From Thermosynechococcus sp. (GTDB lineage: Bacteria; Cyanobacteriota; Cyanobacteriia; Thermosynechococcales; Thermosynechococcaceae), in NCBI RefSeq assembly GCF_025999095.1, contig NZ_AP024678.1:1829527-1893526 (forward strand): DNA of 64,000 bases. Direction: 5' to 3'. Position 1 is the first letter of the stretch. Every line of letters begins with the position of its first letter. Of the stretch, positions 26,847-35,630 are shown piece after piece. The position numbers were made by a program, and so were the translations under genes. Below the pieces are notes generated by a model, which saw only the letters and a list, made by a program, of their open reading frames with translations, searched no databases and was not told the origin of the DNA.

Positions 26847-28781
26847 ATGAATACGGCCATTGTCCCCAGCGATTCCGCGCCCCAAGAGATTGCGATCGCC
26901 GCTGAACCCCTTCCCAATGATCCAGATACCTTTCAACCCTACGATCCAGTGGCCATTGATGCCTACTATCGGCAGCGCCCTTTACTGGTGTTTAGCCGCT
27001 GGCTGCGGATTCTCTGGCCGGTGTTTTGGCTGCTTTTTAATCGTTGGTGGGATAGGATCACAGGCCAAGCTCAGCAAAATCAGCGCAAGCGGGCGATCGC
27101 CCTGCGGGAAACCCTAACCCGCCTTGGCCCTGCTTATATCAAAGTGGGACAAGCCCTCTCCACCCGTCCAGATCTCCTTCCTGCCGTCTATCTAGAGGAA
27201 TTGACAAAACTCCAAGATCAGTTACCCCCCTTCCCCAATGAAGTGGCCTTTCAGTTTATTGAGGAGGAACTGGGCGCCCCCCCCAGGGAACTCTTTGCTG
27301 AACTCAGTGATCATCCCATTGCCGCGGCTTCCCTGGGACAGGTCTATCGCGGCAAACTCCCCAATGGCGAAGAGGTGGCCGTTAAAGTGCAGCGCCCCGG
27401 CTTGGCAGAGAGTATCACCTTAGATATTTACATTCTGCGGGGGGTGGCCTATTGGGCAAAACGCCTGATCAAGGAAATTCGCAGTGATTTAGTGGCCATT
27501 CTCGATGAATTTGCCAGTCGCCTCTTTGAGGAAATGGACTATACCCAAGAGGCGCGGAATGCCGAACGCTTCGCCCGTCTCTATGGTCACCTGACCGATG
27601 TCTATGTGCCTAAAATTTATTGGCAATACACGCGGCGGCGGGTGCTGACGATGGAGTGGGTAACGGGGGTCAAACTGAACCAACTGCCGCAAATTCAGGC
27701 CCTGGGAATTGACCCGCGCTACATGGTGTACGTGGGGGTGCAGTGCTCCCTACGGCAGTTGCTCGAACATGGTTTTTTCCATGCAGATCCCCATCCGGGA
27801 AATCTGTTGGCCATGCCCAGCGGCAAACTGGCCTATCTCGACTTTGGCATGATGAGTGAAATTGCCCCGGAGCAGCGCTATGGACTTCTGAATGCAATTG
27901 TTCATATTGTCAACCGTGAGTATGAGAGTTTGGCCTACGACTATGTGAAATTGGGGTTTCTGTCGCCAGACACCAATCTGGAGCCGATTATTCCCGCTTT
28001 GGCCTTAGTTTTTGAGGATGCCCTGGGGGCCAGCGTCTCAGAACTGAATATCCAACGCATTTTCGATCGCCTCTCAGAGGTGATGTATGAGTATCCCTTT
28101 CAAGTGCCCGCCTATTATGCCTTGATTGTGCGATCGCTCCTGACCATGGAGGGGATTGCCATGGGCGTTGACCCCAACTTTAAGGTGCTCAGTGCTGCCT
28201 ATCCCTACATTGCCAAGCGACTGCTCACGGATCCTGCCCCGGAGCTGCGTACGAGTCTCACGAACCTGCTCCTCAAGGATGGTCAGTTTCGCTGGACGCG
28301 CCTAGAAAATCTGCTGCGCAATGCCCGTGAGAGCCGTGACTATGACTTTAATGTAGTCCTGGAACAGGCTTTGGATTTTCTCTTTTCGGAGCGGGGAGCC
28401 GAGTATCGCGATCGCCTAGCGGATGAAATTGTCAAGAGCCTTGACACTTGGGCACGGACGACGATGGGGCAATGGAACCTTGCGCAACTCTTACCCCTAG
28501 TCGGCCGCCCAGTACCCGCAACGGCCAGTTCCAACATCATCAGTGAAGCCAATGCCCTAGAGCATTTGCGCCGCATTTTCAGCATTTTGCAGGATACCCC
28601 CGGTTTTGATTGGGGCAAAGTTATCCCTGCGATTCTGCGGATTATTGTGCGCCCAGAGGTGCAGCAAATGGGTCAGCGCATTGTCAACGGCCTCCTGCAA
28701 CGGGCGATCGCTCGCTTGATCCGGGAGATGTTGCTGGCGGACTCGCAGCCGGCGCTACAGACGACGACTCTGTCTCGCTAG
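26847..28781 (+). CDS. ABC1/UbiB family atypical kinase
   Basis: This 644-residue protein has the ABC1 family fingerprint: KxGQ extension (YIKVGQALSTRPDLLP, ~95-110), AAASLGQVYRG replacing the usual P-loop, EMDYTQEARNAERF, and kinase motifs HADPHPGNLL and LDFGMM. These atypical kinases/ATPases support quinone or tocopherol metabolism in plastids and cyanobacteria; the specific role here is unknown. The C-terminal ~200 residues are helical. Its last ~98 bp overlap the convergent TonB-like reading frame. Confidence 0.9.
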   Translation: MNTAIVPSDSAPQEIAIAAEPLPNDPDTFQPYDPVAIDAYYRQRPLLVFSRWLRILWPVFWLLFNRWWDRITGQAQQNQRKRAIALRETLTRLGPAYIKVGQALSTRPDLLPAVYLEELTKLQDQLPPFPNEVAFQFIEEELGAPPRELFAELSDHPIAAASLGQVYRGKLPNGEEVAVKVQRPGLAESITLDIYILRGVAYWAKRLIKEIRSDLVAILDEFASRLFEEMDYTQEARNAERFARLYGHLTDVYVPKIYWQYTRRRVLTMEWVTGVKLNQLPQIQALGIDPRYMVYVGVQCSLRQLLEHGFFHADPHPGNLLAMPSGKLAYLDFGMMSEIAPEQRYGLLNAIVHIVNREYESLAYDYVKLGFLSPDTNLEPIIPALALVFEDALGASVSELNIQRIFDRLSEVMYEYPFQVPAYYALIVRSLLTMEGIAMGVDPNFKVLSAAYPYIAKRLLTDPAPELRTSLTNLLLKDGQFRWTRLENLLRNARESRDYDFNVVLEQALDFLFSERGAEYRDRLADEIVKSLDTWARTTMGQWNLAQLLPLVGRPVPATASSNIISEANALEHLRRIFSILQDTPGFDWGKVIPAILRIIVRPEVQQMGQRIVNGLLQRAIARLIREMLLADSQPALQTTTLSR

Positions 28782-29586
28782 GTTCTGGGGATACAGCCGG
28801 TGGTGTTGCCTCAGGGGGCGGGGAAGTTGGTGCAGGGGTCACTTCTCCAGCGGCTGGGGGTGAAGCCTGATGAGCCTCAGAGGGGTTAGGCTCTCCTTGA
28901 GGGAATGCTGCTGGCGGGGGCGTTGAAGGGGCTGGCGCGGGGGATTGCTGGCGGGGGGGTGAAGCAGCGGGCGGGCACACCTCAGGACGATACTCAAAGG
29001 CAAAGGTGATTGCCAGGGCTTGATATTTGCCTGTGGCCTCAAAAGCTTGCTTTCGTACCTGCTCTAGGGCCGCCTGATCCAAAAGGGCAGAGCCACTACT
29101 GCGAATAATCTGGGGATTGCGGGTGAGCAAGCCCGTTTCTGGGGCGGCATTTGCCGGAAGCAATTCACCTTGGGGAGTGACTACCACTGCAACCGTTGTT
29201 TCCCCTTGTAGGCGATCGCCACAGGCCTCCTGAGGATAAAAGTCCGCAATCCGCTGCGCAAAATTCACTTGGATATCTGTCGTATTCAGCGTTGAGCGCG
29301 TTTCATTAAACCAGCGGGACAAAGCTGCTGCTGCTGCCGCTGTTGTACGGGCGATCGGCTCATTCGGTGGGGATGTAGGAGTCGGTGAGACCAGTTCTGG
29401 AGCAACGGCAACATCTTCATTGGGGCTGGTGGGGATAACCGGTAAGGGGCGGGTGGGCGGGGGCAATTGCCACAGGGGGGGCAAAGGCTGCACAGGAGTT
29501 GGATTCGGTAGCGGTGGGAGTGCCGTCAATGGCGGCAAAGGGGGGTAGCGGCGCCAAGGGGGCAAAGGAGAGGGGAGGAGGCTCAA
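28684..29586 (-). CDS. TonB-like protein, C-terminal part (frameshifted from 5' part)
   Basis: This 300-codon frame carries a proline-rich linker, then a TonB C-terminal-like domain (TTVAVVVTPQGELLP..., SSGSALLDQAALEQVRKQAFEATGKYQA), and ends in a long Pro/Ser/Ala-rich tail. Its first ATG lies inside the proline-rich repeat and has no ribosome site, so it is not a natural start. Removing one C from the six-C run (minus strand; 29540-29545) joins it in frame to the upstream half, which has the membrane anchor. The intact protein would span the periplasm and may energise outer-membrane transport. Its end overlaps the ABC1 kinase gene. Confidence 0.7.
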   Translation of the reverse strand: MSLLPSPLPPWRRYPPLPPLTALPPLPNPTPVQPLPPLWQLPPPTRPLPVIPTSPNEDVAVAPELVSPTPTSPPNEPIARTTAAAAAALSRWFNETRSTLNTTDIQVNFAQRIADFYPQEACGDRLQGETTVAVVVTPQGELLPANAAPETGLLTRNPQIIRSSGSALLDQAALEQVRKQAFEATGKYQALAITFAFEYRPEVCPPAASPPRQQSPAPAPSTPPPAAFPQGEPNPSEAHQASPPAAGEVTPAPTSPPPEATPPAVSPEPSETESSSVAPAASPPATSPGSSERSPVAGGR

Positions 29587-29872
29587 TGGCTGTGAATGGC
29601 AACGGCGGTGGTGTGGTTGTGGCCAGGGGCGGCAGTTCTGTAGGCAAGAGGGGTTCGATAGACGGTAAATCCGCTTCTAGTTCTGGAGAAAGACTGACCA
29701 AGGGCACCAGTCGATCATTGGCCAACTCTGGGGGTGTGGGTTCGGGGACACGCACAAAGGAGAGGATAACGGCGTGCAAAAGAATTGAACCGGCGATCGC
29801 CAGCCGGTTTGACTCCCACACTGGCCATTGAGAAACCCTCTGCCAAATCGGTTGAATGGGTAACCGCAACAT
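29417..29872 (-). CDS. TonB-like protein, N-terminal part (frame broken)
   Basis: From ATG 29872, MLRLPIQPIWQRV is followed by one transmembrane segment (LAIAGSILLHAVILSFVRVP) and a proline-rich periplasmic stretch, as in TonB energy transducers. After the C6 run at 29540-29545 the frame loses its proline-rich pattern (AIDGTPTATESNSC...) and stops at 29417. Meanwhile the +1 frame continues the Pro-Leu-Pro pattern. This is a frameshift in the gene, a sequencing error, or slippage. A GTG at 29887 is an alternative start. No ExbB/ExbD genes are nearby. Confidence 0.7.
   Translation of the reverse strand: MLRLPIQPIWQRVSQWPVWESNRLAIAGSILLHAVILSFVRVPEPTPPELANDRLVPLVSLSPELEADLPSIEPLLPTELPPLATTTPPPLPFTAIEPPPLSFAPLAPLPPFAAIDGTPTATESNSCAAFAPPVAIAPAHPPLTGYPHQPQ
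29540..29545 (-). other. six-base homopolymer at the TonB-like frameshift
   Basis: This run reads CCCCCC on the coding (minus) strand. Upstream codons CTA CCC CCC lead to the terminated frame; with five C the reading becomes CTA CCC CCT TTG CCG and continues into the TonB-like domain. Short homopolymers are common places for indels and for transcriptional slippage. Confidence 0.6.
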
Positions 29873-30008
29873 ACAAGAACTCCACACCCGTGAATATCCA
29901 TGACGATTTTATCTTGGCTGATTATTCCTAATGCCAAGGGAAACTTGCTACGATAAGCGAATAATGCTGTCCCAATATGGCTGGCTGCCAATACTGGCCC
30001 TATCAGTG

Positions 30009-32198
30009 ATGTCCACCCAATTTCAAGAAGTTGAAGTTATACTCAATCGTTTTTTTGTAAAAAATCTCACTCAACTAGATCTTACGTTTCATGAATACCA
30101 ATGCCAATTTACTCAAGTGCCAGAACAAGGTAGCGAGCAGAAAGCTATTTCCAGCGTTTGCTACAAACTAGGAGTTACTGCTGTTCGACTAGGGAGCCGC
30201 ATTATCACGAGGGAGCCCATTGACCCTAGGAGAATGCAAACTCAGGATTGGCAGTTACAGCAAATAGGATATAGAGAACTGAGCTGTCAAAACTATCACG
30301 AAAGGCAGGCTATGGAATCCTTTGAAAGAAAAATCCTAGAGGAAAAGTTAAAACGATTTAATAAAACCGCAATCGAAAAAGACTATGAATTAGGGTTGAT
30401 TTGGTGGATTTCTAGTCAAGAAGGATTAGAAAAAATAGGTCATGGCTGGCAAGTACATAGAGGCAGACAAATTGATCTTATAATAGAAACAGATGGAAAA
30501 TTATACTTACAAATTGATATTCATCATCGGTTTTATACTCCATTCACACTTGAGTGGTGGCTAACTGAATATCCTGATATTCAACTCAAGTACGTGCGGA
30601 ATACTTACGAAAACAAGACAAACTGGCTCTTTGAAGGCCTTTCGGACAAACGTCCAAATGAAATAAAAATAGAAGAGCTAGGAGTGAGTGTAGCAGAGTA
30701 TCACCGTAAAAAGGGAGCAACTGAACAAGAAATAAATGAGTCACATGTTGTAATTGTTAAGAAAACTAGCGGCTACACGGCTAAGCCAATACTTCATTTG
30801 TCTCAAAGATTATCACCGATTCTGACAATGGAAATATTGGCGCAAATTGCTGCGCAAAGAGGAGAAGAAAGTGAAATTCAAAATGTTTTTGACTACATCA
30901 AGAAAGATATTAACTCGCGTTTACAAGAATCGCAAAAAACAGCGAAATTTATTTTCGAAAATATCTATAATCTCAGTAGTCAACCAGAGATAATGAAAGT
31001 TAATGGCTTTGTCATGCCTCGGGCAAAACTATTAGCTCGAAATAACAAAGAAATCGATAAAACAGCTAAAATCAGAATTCTCGGCTGTGCTAGGATTGGT
31101 GAAACCCAATTTGGTTGCCTAAATCTTTTTGAGAATCAACCTGAATGCCCAGCGGAAGTACGCAAATGCCTGCTGGACATAGCAAGAAGCAGTGGCACGC
31201 AGATACAAATAGACTCCTGTTTTACAGGAAGTGACTATCCAAAAGATGATCTAGCTCAACAAAGATTCTGGCAACAATGGGCTGCTCAAGGAATTAAAAC
31301 CGTTTTAGTAGTGATGCCTTGGTCACCCCATGGGGAGAAAACAAGGCTACGAATTCAGGCATTAAAGGCAGGAATCGCTACTCAGTTCATGATACCAACA
31401 CCCCAGGCTAATCCCTACAAAGCTCTCAATGTTGCCTTGGGACTGTTGTGTAAAGCTAAGTGGCAGCCTGTCTATCTAAAACCATTAGATGATTCTCAAG
31501 CTGCGGACTTAATTATTGGTTTTGACACAAGTACAAACCGAAAGCTGTACTATGGTACGTCTGCTTTTGCAATTTTAGCCAATGGTCAAAGCTTGGGTTG
31601 GGAGTTACCAGATATACAACGGGGAGAAACTTTCTCTGGTCAATCAATTTGGCAAATTGTATCTAAGCTAGTGCTTAAATTCCAAGATAACTATGGTTCC
31701 TACCCTAAGAAGATACTACTGATGCGCGACGGGCTTGTTCAAGAAGGGGAGTTTGAACAAACAATCAAAGAACTGACTCACCAGGGGATTGATGTCGATA
31801 TTCTAAGTGTCCGTAAAAGTGGCTCAGGGAGGATAGGACGTGAATCTAATTCAGGCAATACCGAAATAACCTATCATGACGCTGAAGTGGGCACTGTAAT
31901 TTTTTATTCTGAAAGTGACTCATTTATATTACAAACCACCGAGGTCATCAAGACAAAAACTGGCCCCCTTGGCAGTGCTAGACCTCTGCGGGTTGTGCGT
32001 CACTATGGCAATACACCTTTAGAGCTACTGGCTTTGCAGACCTATCACTTGACTCAGTTGCATCCTGCCAGCGGATTTAGCTCCTGCCGACTGCCTTGGG
32101 TACTGCACTTCGCCGATAAAAGTAGTAAGGAGTTTCAGCGGATAGGTCAGATCAGCCTTTTGCAGAATATTGATCGAGAAAAGTTAATTGCTGTTTGA
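30009..32198 (+). CDS. long prokaryotic Argonaute, catalytically complete
   Basis: This 729-residue protein (ATG 30009) has the N-PAZ-MID-PIWI layout of a long pAgo. The PIWI tetrad is intact: D506 (LIIGFDTST), E540 in the glutamate finger (RGETFSG), D574 (LLMRDGLVQEGEFE) and D703 (VLHFADKSSKE). The MID region includes VVMPWSPHGEKTRLRIQ and YKALNVALGLLCKAKW. I recall close similarity to the DNA-guided Argonaute of Synechococcus elongatus, whose N-terminus supports start 30009 over ATG 29964 or 29931. Such enzymes use small DNA guides to cut DNA and help with plasmid defence or chromosome decatenation. The gene is AT-rich, has no HIP1 site, and stands alone. Confidence 0.93.
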   Translation: MSTQFQEVEVILNRFFVKNLTQLDLTFHEYQCQFTQVPEQGSEQKAISSVCYKLGVTAVRLGSRIITREPIDPRRMQTQDWQLQQIGYRELSCQNYHERQAMESFERKILEEKLKRFNKTAIEKDYELGLIWWISSQEGLEKIGHGWQVHRGRQIDLIIETDGKLYLQIDIHHRFYTPFTLEWWLTEYPDIQLKYVRNTYENKTNWLFEGLSDKRPNEIKIEELGVSVAEYHRKKGATEQEINESHVVIVKKTSGYTAKPILHLSQRLSPILTMEILAQIAAQRGEESEIQNVFDYIKKDINSRLQESQKTAKFIFENIYNLSSQPEIMKVNGFVMPRAKLLARNNKEIDKTAKIRILGCARIGETQFGCLNLFENQPECPAEVRKCLLDIARSSGTQIQIDSCFTGSDYPKDDLAQQRFWQQWAAQGIKTVLVVMPWSPHGEKTRLRIQALKAGIATQFMIPTPQANPYKALNVALGLLCKAKWQPVYLKPLDDSQAADLIIGFDTSTNRKLYYGTSAFAILANGQSLGWELPDIQRGETFSGQSIWQIVSKLVLKFQDNYGSYPKKILLMRDGLVQEGEFEQTIKELTHQGIDVDILSVRKSGSGRIGRESNSGNTEITYHDAEVGTVIFYSESDSFILQTTEVIKTKTGPLGSARPLRVVRHYGNTPLELLALQTYHLTQLHPASGFSSCRLPWVLHFADKSSKEFQRIGQISLLQNIDREKLIAV

Positions 32199-32608
32199 GA
32201 AGAGAATAGATTTTAATCTATCAAAATATAGGAAAAAATTGAAATACCCTATGCAGTCTACCCAAGGGCAAGCAGAAGCCTCTTAAGCGGGCAATTAGCC
32301 TCTGGGGAGATGATTATCTTTAGATAAAGTTCTATGAATTAAGCGATTTGTATTGATCTATCTTGAGTTGAAAGGGGTATCAGGCACTTAAAATTAGATT
32401 TGATAATACGATAAACTAGAAAATATTATCAATCGTTATATTGTCAAAAGAAACCCCTCACCCTATGCTTGTTTTAGAGATAAAGAGACGGTGATTAACG
32501 TCACGATAACAATCGGCTATCCCGTCATTATTTTCTGTAGCGATCGCCCTGATTGCAACTCTAGCTTGTGTACTGCTTACCCTTATTCTAATTTAGGAGA
32601 GCTGACTC
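32199..32608. other. AT-rich gap between Argonaute and ccm operon
   Basis: This 410-bp stretch has no credible ORF. It starts with a weak AT hairpin (ATAGAT/ATCTAT, 32206-32221) just after the Argonaute stop, and must hold the ccm operon promoter further right. The first HIP1 octamer after the Argonaute gene is at about 32540. The ribosome site AGGAGA for ccmK2 is at 32595-32600. No clear -35/-10 pair could be assigned. Confidence 0.5.
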
Positions 32609-32917
32609 ATGCCAATTGCTGTGGGAATGATTGAAACGCGCGGATTTCCCGCCGTTGTCGAAGCCGCAGACGCAATGGTAAAAGCCGCTCGGGTCACCCT
32701 TGTGGGCTATGAAAAAATAGGGAGTGGTCGGGTCACCGTGATTGTCCGTGGCGATGTTTCTGAAGTGCAGGCCTCAGTGGCTGCCGGGGTTGATTCTGCC
32801 AAACGTGTCAATGGCGGAGAGGTGCTGTCCACCCACATTATTGCCCGTCCCCACGAAAACCTTGAGTACGTCTTGCCCATTCGCTATACCGAGGCAGTGG
32901 AGCAATTCCGAAACTAA
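32609..32917 (+). CDS. ccmK2: carboxysome shell protein CcmK2
   Basis: This 102-residue single BMC domain protein is a major hexameric tile of the beta-carboxysome shell. It begins [23 protein letters not shown]; the pore loop is EKIGSG; the final strand region has [21 protein letters not shown] lies 8 bp upstream of the ATG. It is the first gene of ccmK2-K1-L-M-N. The K2/K1 names follow the usual operon order and the shorter C-terminus; the two differ by few residues. Confidence 0.93.
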
Positions 32918-33012
32918 AGGGTTTGGCAGTTTGGTAGAGTTTTCAGTTGCATCGCTTATCAATCCTCTCGTCCTTTTAGTTCTTGACTTTTTGACGTTTA
33001 GGAGTTATTGCA

Positions 33013-33354
33013 ATGGCAATTGCCGTCGGTATGATTGAAACCCTTGGTTTCCCCGCAGTGGTAGAAGCCGCAGACGCAATGGTGAAAGCTGCTCGCGTTA
33101 CCCTTGTGGGCTATGAAAAAATCGGGAGCGGTCGGGTCACCGTGATTGTCCGTGGTGATGTTTCTGAAGTGCAGGCTTCGGTGGCGGCGGGGGTCGAAAA
33201 CGTGAAACGTGTCAATGGGGGCCAAGTGCTCTCCACCCACATCATTGCTCGTCCCCACGAAAACCTTGAATACGTGCTGCCGATTCGCTACACCGAAGCG
33301 GTGGAACAATTCCGCGAAAGCGTTAGCGGTATCCGCCCGATGGGTCGCCCATAG
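33013..33354 (+). CDS. ccmK1: carboxysome shell protein CcmK1
   Basis: This 113-residue BMC shell protein is nearly identical to the preceding CcmK2 through residue ~100, with an extra C-terminal tail ([13 protein letters not shown]). The pore loop EKIGSG is the same. It would form hexamers, possibly mixed with CcmK2, in the shell facets. GGAG precedes the ATG at 12 bp. Its stop codon shares a base with the GTG start of ccmL, which suggests translational coupling. Confidence 0.93.
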
Positions 33355-33653
33355 TGAAGATCGCGCGAGTGTGCGGCACCGTTACCAGTACTCAAAAGGA
33401 AGACACCTTAACGGGAGTCAAGTTTCTCGTCTTGCAATATTTGGGTGAGGACGGCGAATTTTTACCCGACTACGAAGTGGCTGCGGATACGGTTGGTGCA
33501 GGGCAGGATGAGTGGGTATTGGTAAGCCGAGGCAGTGCCGCCCGCTGTATTATCAATGGCACCGACAAACCCATTGACGCAGCCGTTGTCGCCATTATTG
33601 ACACCGTAAGTCGGGATAATTATTTGCTCTACAGCAAACGTACCCAGTATTAG
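33354..33653 (+). CDS. ccmL: carboxysome vertex protein CcmL
   Basis: This 99-residue BMC-vertex (EutN/CcmL) protein forms pentamers that close the icosahedral shell. The start is GTG at 33354 (MKIARVCGTVTSTQK), overlapping the ccmK1 stop by one base. Conserved features are LTGVKFLVLQYL, VGAGQDEWVLVSRGSAAR and AAVVAIIDTV. Length is standard. Confidence 0.96.
   Translation: MKIARVCGTVTSTQKEDTLTGVKFLVLQYLGEDGEFLPDYEVAADTVGAGQDEWVLVSRGSAARCIINGTDKPIDAAVVAIIDTVSRDNYLLYSKRTQY

Positions 33654-35630
<1,977 letters not shown>

Follow-up and report, generated by a model that had tools for sequence, protein, structure and literature searches.

A long-A Argonaute of probable catalytic competence in Thermosynechococcus: inferred loss and replacement in the genus, and relatives borne on integron cassettes

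Prokaryotic Argonautes (pAgos) spread by horizontal gene transfer (PMC6299218, PMC10653904), and predicted active Argonautes were already published in 2023 for Thermosynechococcus, a genus named in a survey that predicted activity for 20 of 160 cyanobacterial pAgo homologues (PMC10653904). Among the closest described systems, TtAgo of Thermus thermophilus aids the completion of replication, and SeAgo of Synechococcus elongatus rescues E. coli from gyrase inhibition (PMC10269773). Guide formation by SeAgo depends on its own nuclease, and Cas4 has been implicated alongside it in S. elongatus (PMC10653904). We analysed here a 64-kb stretch of Thermosynechococcus DNA, called the window at its full length, which carries an ago gene on its plus strand. 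We consider it likely that this gene specifies a catalytically competent, partner-free long-A Argonaute of the TtAgo/SeAgo branch, acting by DNA-guided DNA cutting, and that the genus retains one such enzyme. What is new here is not the type of protein but the history of loss, scars and replacement in the genus, together with the cassette relatives. The elements of the gene are as follows.

30009-32198, plus strand: ago, a long-A prokaryotic Argonaute of 729 amino acids (open frame, PADLOC, TtAgo sequence and fold matches)
30555-30818, plus strand: PAZ domain, residues 183-270 (Pfam PAZ_3)
31059-31391, plus strand: MID region, residues 351-461, with pocket residues K444, R448 and Q459, K482 lying just beyond (weak Ago_Mid match, conserved pocket columns)
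31524-31526, plus strand: codon of catalytic D506, opposite TtAgo D478, invariant in 29 homologues
31626-31628, plus strand: codon of catalytic E540, the glutamate finger, opposite TtAgo E512, invariant
31728-31730, plus strand: codon of catalytic D574, opposite TtAgo D546, invariant except in one partial copy from a metagenome-assembled genome (MAG), G289
32115-32117, plus strand: codon of catalytic D703, opposite TtAgo D660, D in homologues, or H in the recO/leuB-site clade

The frame is translated over 729 codons without a stop. Its start codon is backed by relatives, the homologous codon being the first ATG of the open reading frame (ORF) of G001, and the minus strand of 30009-32198 offers no coding alternative, with stops throughout. 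Profile search and structure prediction, the checks proposed in an initial annotation of this DNA, indeed bore out its claim of a full-length long-A pAgo. The PADLOC pAgo profile matched residues 8-729 (E 9e-304), TtAgo was the top sequence match in the PDB (residues 7-727, E 8e-71), and the predicted structure (predicted local distance difference test 83.8, predicted template modelling score 0.83) matched TtAgo over its full length (Foldseek E 2e-52). The PAZ domain is intact (PAZ_3, residues 183-270, E 2e-32, 112 bits for a cut-off of 27). The MID region gave a weak Ago_Mid match under its cut-off in Pfam, and is covered by three full-length matches, to the PADLOC profile and to TtAgo in sequence and in fold, so that one long protein holds the PAZ, MID and PIWI domains of a long-A pAgo. 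The ratio of nonsynonymous to synonymous substitution rates was 0.14-0.41 among five orthologues, indicating purifying selection on ago.

The DEDD tetrad, which the same annotation had placed exactly, is complete, D506, E540, D574 and D703 aligning in sequence with TtAgo D478, E512, D546 and D660. The 5'-phosphate pocket K444/R448/Q459/K482 aligns by spacing with TtAgo R418/K422/Q433/K457, and its columns are invariant or almost so among relatives; this KR variant of the pocket is listed among long-A pAgos (PMC6299218). VIA-align superposed the model on TtAgo with Z 28.1 over 654 residues (4ncb) and Z 33 (3dlb), with 624-654 residues aligned overall and a root-mean-square deviation of 6-7 Å, which may reflect domain motion. 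On this sequence evidence, the gene probably encodes a complete, working Argonaute nuclease of known type, similar to TtAgo and SeAgo.

Compared with TtAgo (PDB 3dlb, 4ncb), the window protein has the same domain order, tetrad, pocket positions and predicted fold, and likewise a thermophile host. It differs from it by a pocket reading K-R-Q-K instead of R-K-Q-K, and by a chromosomal gene, whereas TtAgo is plasmid-borne. With SeAgo, it shares the stand-alone organisation and the cyanobacterial cluster of active long-A proteins; in contrast, the host of SeAgo is a mesophile and possesses a Cas4-like gene that was not found in the genome of the window. The closeness to SeAgo proposed at the outset is likely, in line with the 58% identity of the G058 homologue. 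This homologue is probably SeAgo, G058 being probably S. elongatus.

No helicase, nuclease or guide-generating partner had been noticed next to ago, and this view was upheld on a wider scale, since no gene family recurred beside ago among 23 named cyanobacterial loci. A conserved operon partner was thus ruled out in unrelated loci. Cas4 (PF01930) was not found in the window genome, nor in G003, G005, G006, G008 and G009 (five of the ten congeners), and its absence from 6 of 11 genus genomes rules it out as an obligate partner. Phage or viral carriage of ago was searched for and none was found; as for plasmid carriage of close relatives, nothing on plasmids matched better than the Argonautes of Thermus, at about 29%. 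Scans for promoters and terminators near ago gave chance-level signals only.

From a mechanistic point of view, homology suggests that the MID pocket would bind short 5'-phosphorylated DNA guides and that the DEDD site would cut DNA complementary to the guide. As there is no dedicated guide-making partner, the likeliest sources of guides would be general DNA processing and the enzyme's own cutting. The earlier proposal that guides are drawn from the DNA itself agrees with the lack of Cas4 noted above and with the self-dependent guide formation of SeAgo (PMC10653904), and is kept here as a proposal. Targets may include replication intermediates as well as DNA that enters by transformation or on plasmids; in vivo, the likely role is to cleave such DNA, incoming or replicating, under the direction of DNA guides.

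A catalytic-type Argonaute was present, at differing loci, in all 11 genomes of the genus set, three of which are named Thermosynechococcus. The first three catalytic residues were kept in all of them, the fourth being D or H. The naming of these relatives supports the thermophile host expected initially, Thermosynechococcus dominating mats at 50-65 °C (PMC7005997). Outside the genus, an Argonaute match with E < 1e-100 was found in 18 of 379 genomes of the class (about 5%), which yields a Fisher value of 5e-14 for 11/11 versus 18/379, a statistic that ignores shared ancestry. One locus with stop codons was excluded from the Argonaute alignment. In Pleurocapsales LEGE 06147 (L070:6001-8122), the ago frame has three stops across the matched stretch and is likely decayed or frameshifted.

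The site of the window gene and its borders bear on the history of ago in the genus.

28684-29887, minus strand: TonB-like gene, which bounds the ago site on the left and is frameshifted in this genome
32140-32198, plus strand: 3' end of ago; upstream of ccmK2, its homologue survives as a scar in G009, as a longer one in G008 and as a shorter one in G006
32199-32608, plus strand: intergenic region between ago and ccmK2, conserved in relatives whether or not they bear ago
32609-32917, plus strand: ccmK2 (ORF), which opens the carboxysome operon and bounds the ago site on the right

The TonB-like gene consists of two overlapping frames here and of one ORF in most relatives, its split form being either a pseudogene or a sequencing error. 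The order tonB-like/ago/ccmK2 was also found in G001 and G002, and matches to tonB and to the ccmK2 upstream region adjoin ago in G004, G005 and G007. This upstream region was matched in all genus genomes, and G008 has ccmK2 without ago.

In the Mfd tree, the genus divides into G010 plus G003 on one side and a nine-species clade on the other. Within this clade, ago occupies the window site in G000, G001, G002, G004, G005 and G007; the site is empty in G006, G008 and G009, where a 3' remnant of the former ago persists upstream of ccmK2. In G008, where a single contig holds the TonB-like gene, the scar and ccmK2, only the last codons remain, with a frameshift (SSKELQRIGQISVLEN..IERERLIAV*), and shorter tails, IDREKLISV* and DREELIGV, were read in G009 and G006. 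A second site lies at recO, where G010 and G003 carry an intact ago of DEDH type. Upstream of recO, 22-23 of the last 27 bases of ago were found in G001, G002, G004, G008 and G009, and 18 of 27 in G007, the tails of these six genomes lining up with the conserved stretch ahead of recO. No such tail is present in G000 or G005, and G006 was not assignable. As the tails are short, they are taken as probable remnants of a second ago. A DEDH ago lies beside leuB in G006 and G009, and the other genus genomes show no trace of it, which rules out scars of a loss there and indicates that G006 and G009 gained their gene. We infer at least three losses: of the recO copy in the nine-species clade, and of the window-site copy in G008 and in the G006/G009 line. 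Every genome inferred to have lost one copy owns another, and two Argonautes coexist in G003. Such replacement would reflect a lasting need.

Relatives of this gene are found in a different genetic setting. On sequence grounds, a related ago forms an integron gene cassette, each time with an attC of its own, in Thermosynechococcus G003, in two Gloeomargarita-type genomes (G044, G088), in UBA999 and in Chlorogloea. In all five, attC lies directly 3' of ago, at most about 40 bp from the stop (matches of 67-108 bits), and the cassette start is complementary to the R'' box, GTTATCTC(TAC) pairing with (GTA)GAGATAAC. G231 was provisionally equated with the named record UBA999 because the ago-adjacent attC matches are identical in score. 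The second-type ago of G003 and the ago of G044 share 97% DNA identity, over a stretch that hardly exceeds the gene. The G003 gene is flanked by attC; its 3' side reads GTAGAGATAAC...CCGTTA, and the stretch before it opens with GTTATCTCTAC, complementary to the R'' box as expected of a cassette start. The same borders were read in G088 (Gloeomargaritales VI4D9) and G231 and, with GTTATCTC/GAGATAAC, in Chlorogloea CCALA 695. A covariance model made from seven ago-adjacent attC sites gave 32 matches in the searched loci and none in the window; compensatory changes were found in 45 cells of the refined matches versus 15 in shuffles, in an alignment fitted to the structure. Two matches occurred among 30 control loci. 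As attC is not rare in the family, the case for cassettes is made by the position and borders of the sites and not by their presence alone. Integron integrases scoring above the family cut-off were detected in G231 (UBA999-type), G016, G031 and G248, with fragments only in G044 and G088 and none in G003. We found no report of an Argonaute as an integron cassette in the literature searched, subscription papers and preprints lying outside the search.

Side observations were made at several of these loci. The MAG G008 has two identical ago copies 13.8 kb apart (L038, L039; C10:18383-20545 and 32147-34309), near a Cmr2-like fragment and a gene that resembles, by eye, a restriction enzyme. One copy has a full attC and the other a truncated one, and the left border is absent in the copy read; to judge from its sequence, this cassette is decayed. 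The cassette of G088 is interrupted by an insert with a 343-aa transposase-like ORF (L048:6342-7503). In G003, a large ORF of type IIG restriction-modification appearance by eye (L036:836-4873) lies a few kb before the ago cassette array. G010, whose ago is not a cassette, holds an integron integrase relic with an internal TAG (C1:1355057-1355858). Sites resembling attC near mfd in G012 and G013, two further genomes of the family (L131:5066-5160, L132:90-182), indicate that such sites are scattered in it.

These data allow several explanations to be weighed. The window ago may have entered a site outside any integron as one lone integron cassette, its attC having been lost since. Related ago genes are indeed cassettes, some of them isolated (Chlorogloea, UBA999), and G001 has a lone attC cassette in the ccm region, about 3.5 kb from ago. 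Such an origin is nonetheless improbable, as the site-A clade does not branch from within the cassette genes and as neither pattern nor covariance model matched an attC in the 64-kb window, even with the filters off around ago. This also means that the window copy, devoid of attC and cassette borders, is not a cassette now, a candidate that was ruled out. The lone cassette of G001 (L034:13266-14190) lies between rlmD and the end of ccmM/ccmN, and its gene looks DUF305-like by eye; most of ccmN is apparently deleted there, possibly through a misassembly. A role in chromosome maintenance (decatenation, replication termination, break processing) has been proposed for TtAgo, and an enzyme of this kind, kept as near-core in these thermophiles, would fit the effects of TtAgo on replication completion and of SeAgo under gyrase inhibition (PMC10269773), as well as the genus-wide retention of ago through replacement. 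We regard it as unlikely, in that ago shows no link to replication genes, its flanks being tonB-like and ccm.

It is quite possible, if doubtful, that ago is an ordinary come-and-go defence gene, its presence throughout the genus being due to chance and common descent with no special need. The horizontal spread of pAgos (PMC6299218, PMC10653904), the mobility of its relatives as integron cassettes and the descent of several site-A copies from one ancestor speak in its favour. On the other hand, the at least three inferred losses all fall in genomes with another intact-looking Argonaute, versus a frequency of about 5% outside the genus. We tentatively propose, in turn, that cyanobacteria share a pool of catalytic long-A Argonautes, partly mobile as cassettes, and that Thermosynechococcus depends on one of them, a copy being lost only in genomes that have gained another; the function would then be near-core, and no single locus is.

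The reading of a competent, partner-free Argonaute retained by the genus has points against it. Its guide and target chemistry is deduced from homologues rather than from the biochemistry of the window protein, which is only about 29% identical to TtAgo. Deletion or overexpression of SeAgo left growth unaltered (PMC10269773), an argument against the gene being essential in at least one relative. Moreover, 3 of the 11 genus genomes are MAGs, the Argonaute of G006 is cut by a contig end, and genus-wide presence may be partly due to shared ancestry.

An intact, partner-free Argonaute in a thermophilic and genetically tractable genus is a good model for guide acquisition. The pattern of loss and replacement makes the choice between defence and chromosome maintenance testable by deletion, and integron cassettes offer a concrete route for the spread of Argonautes.
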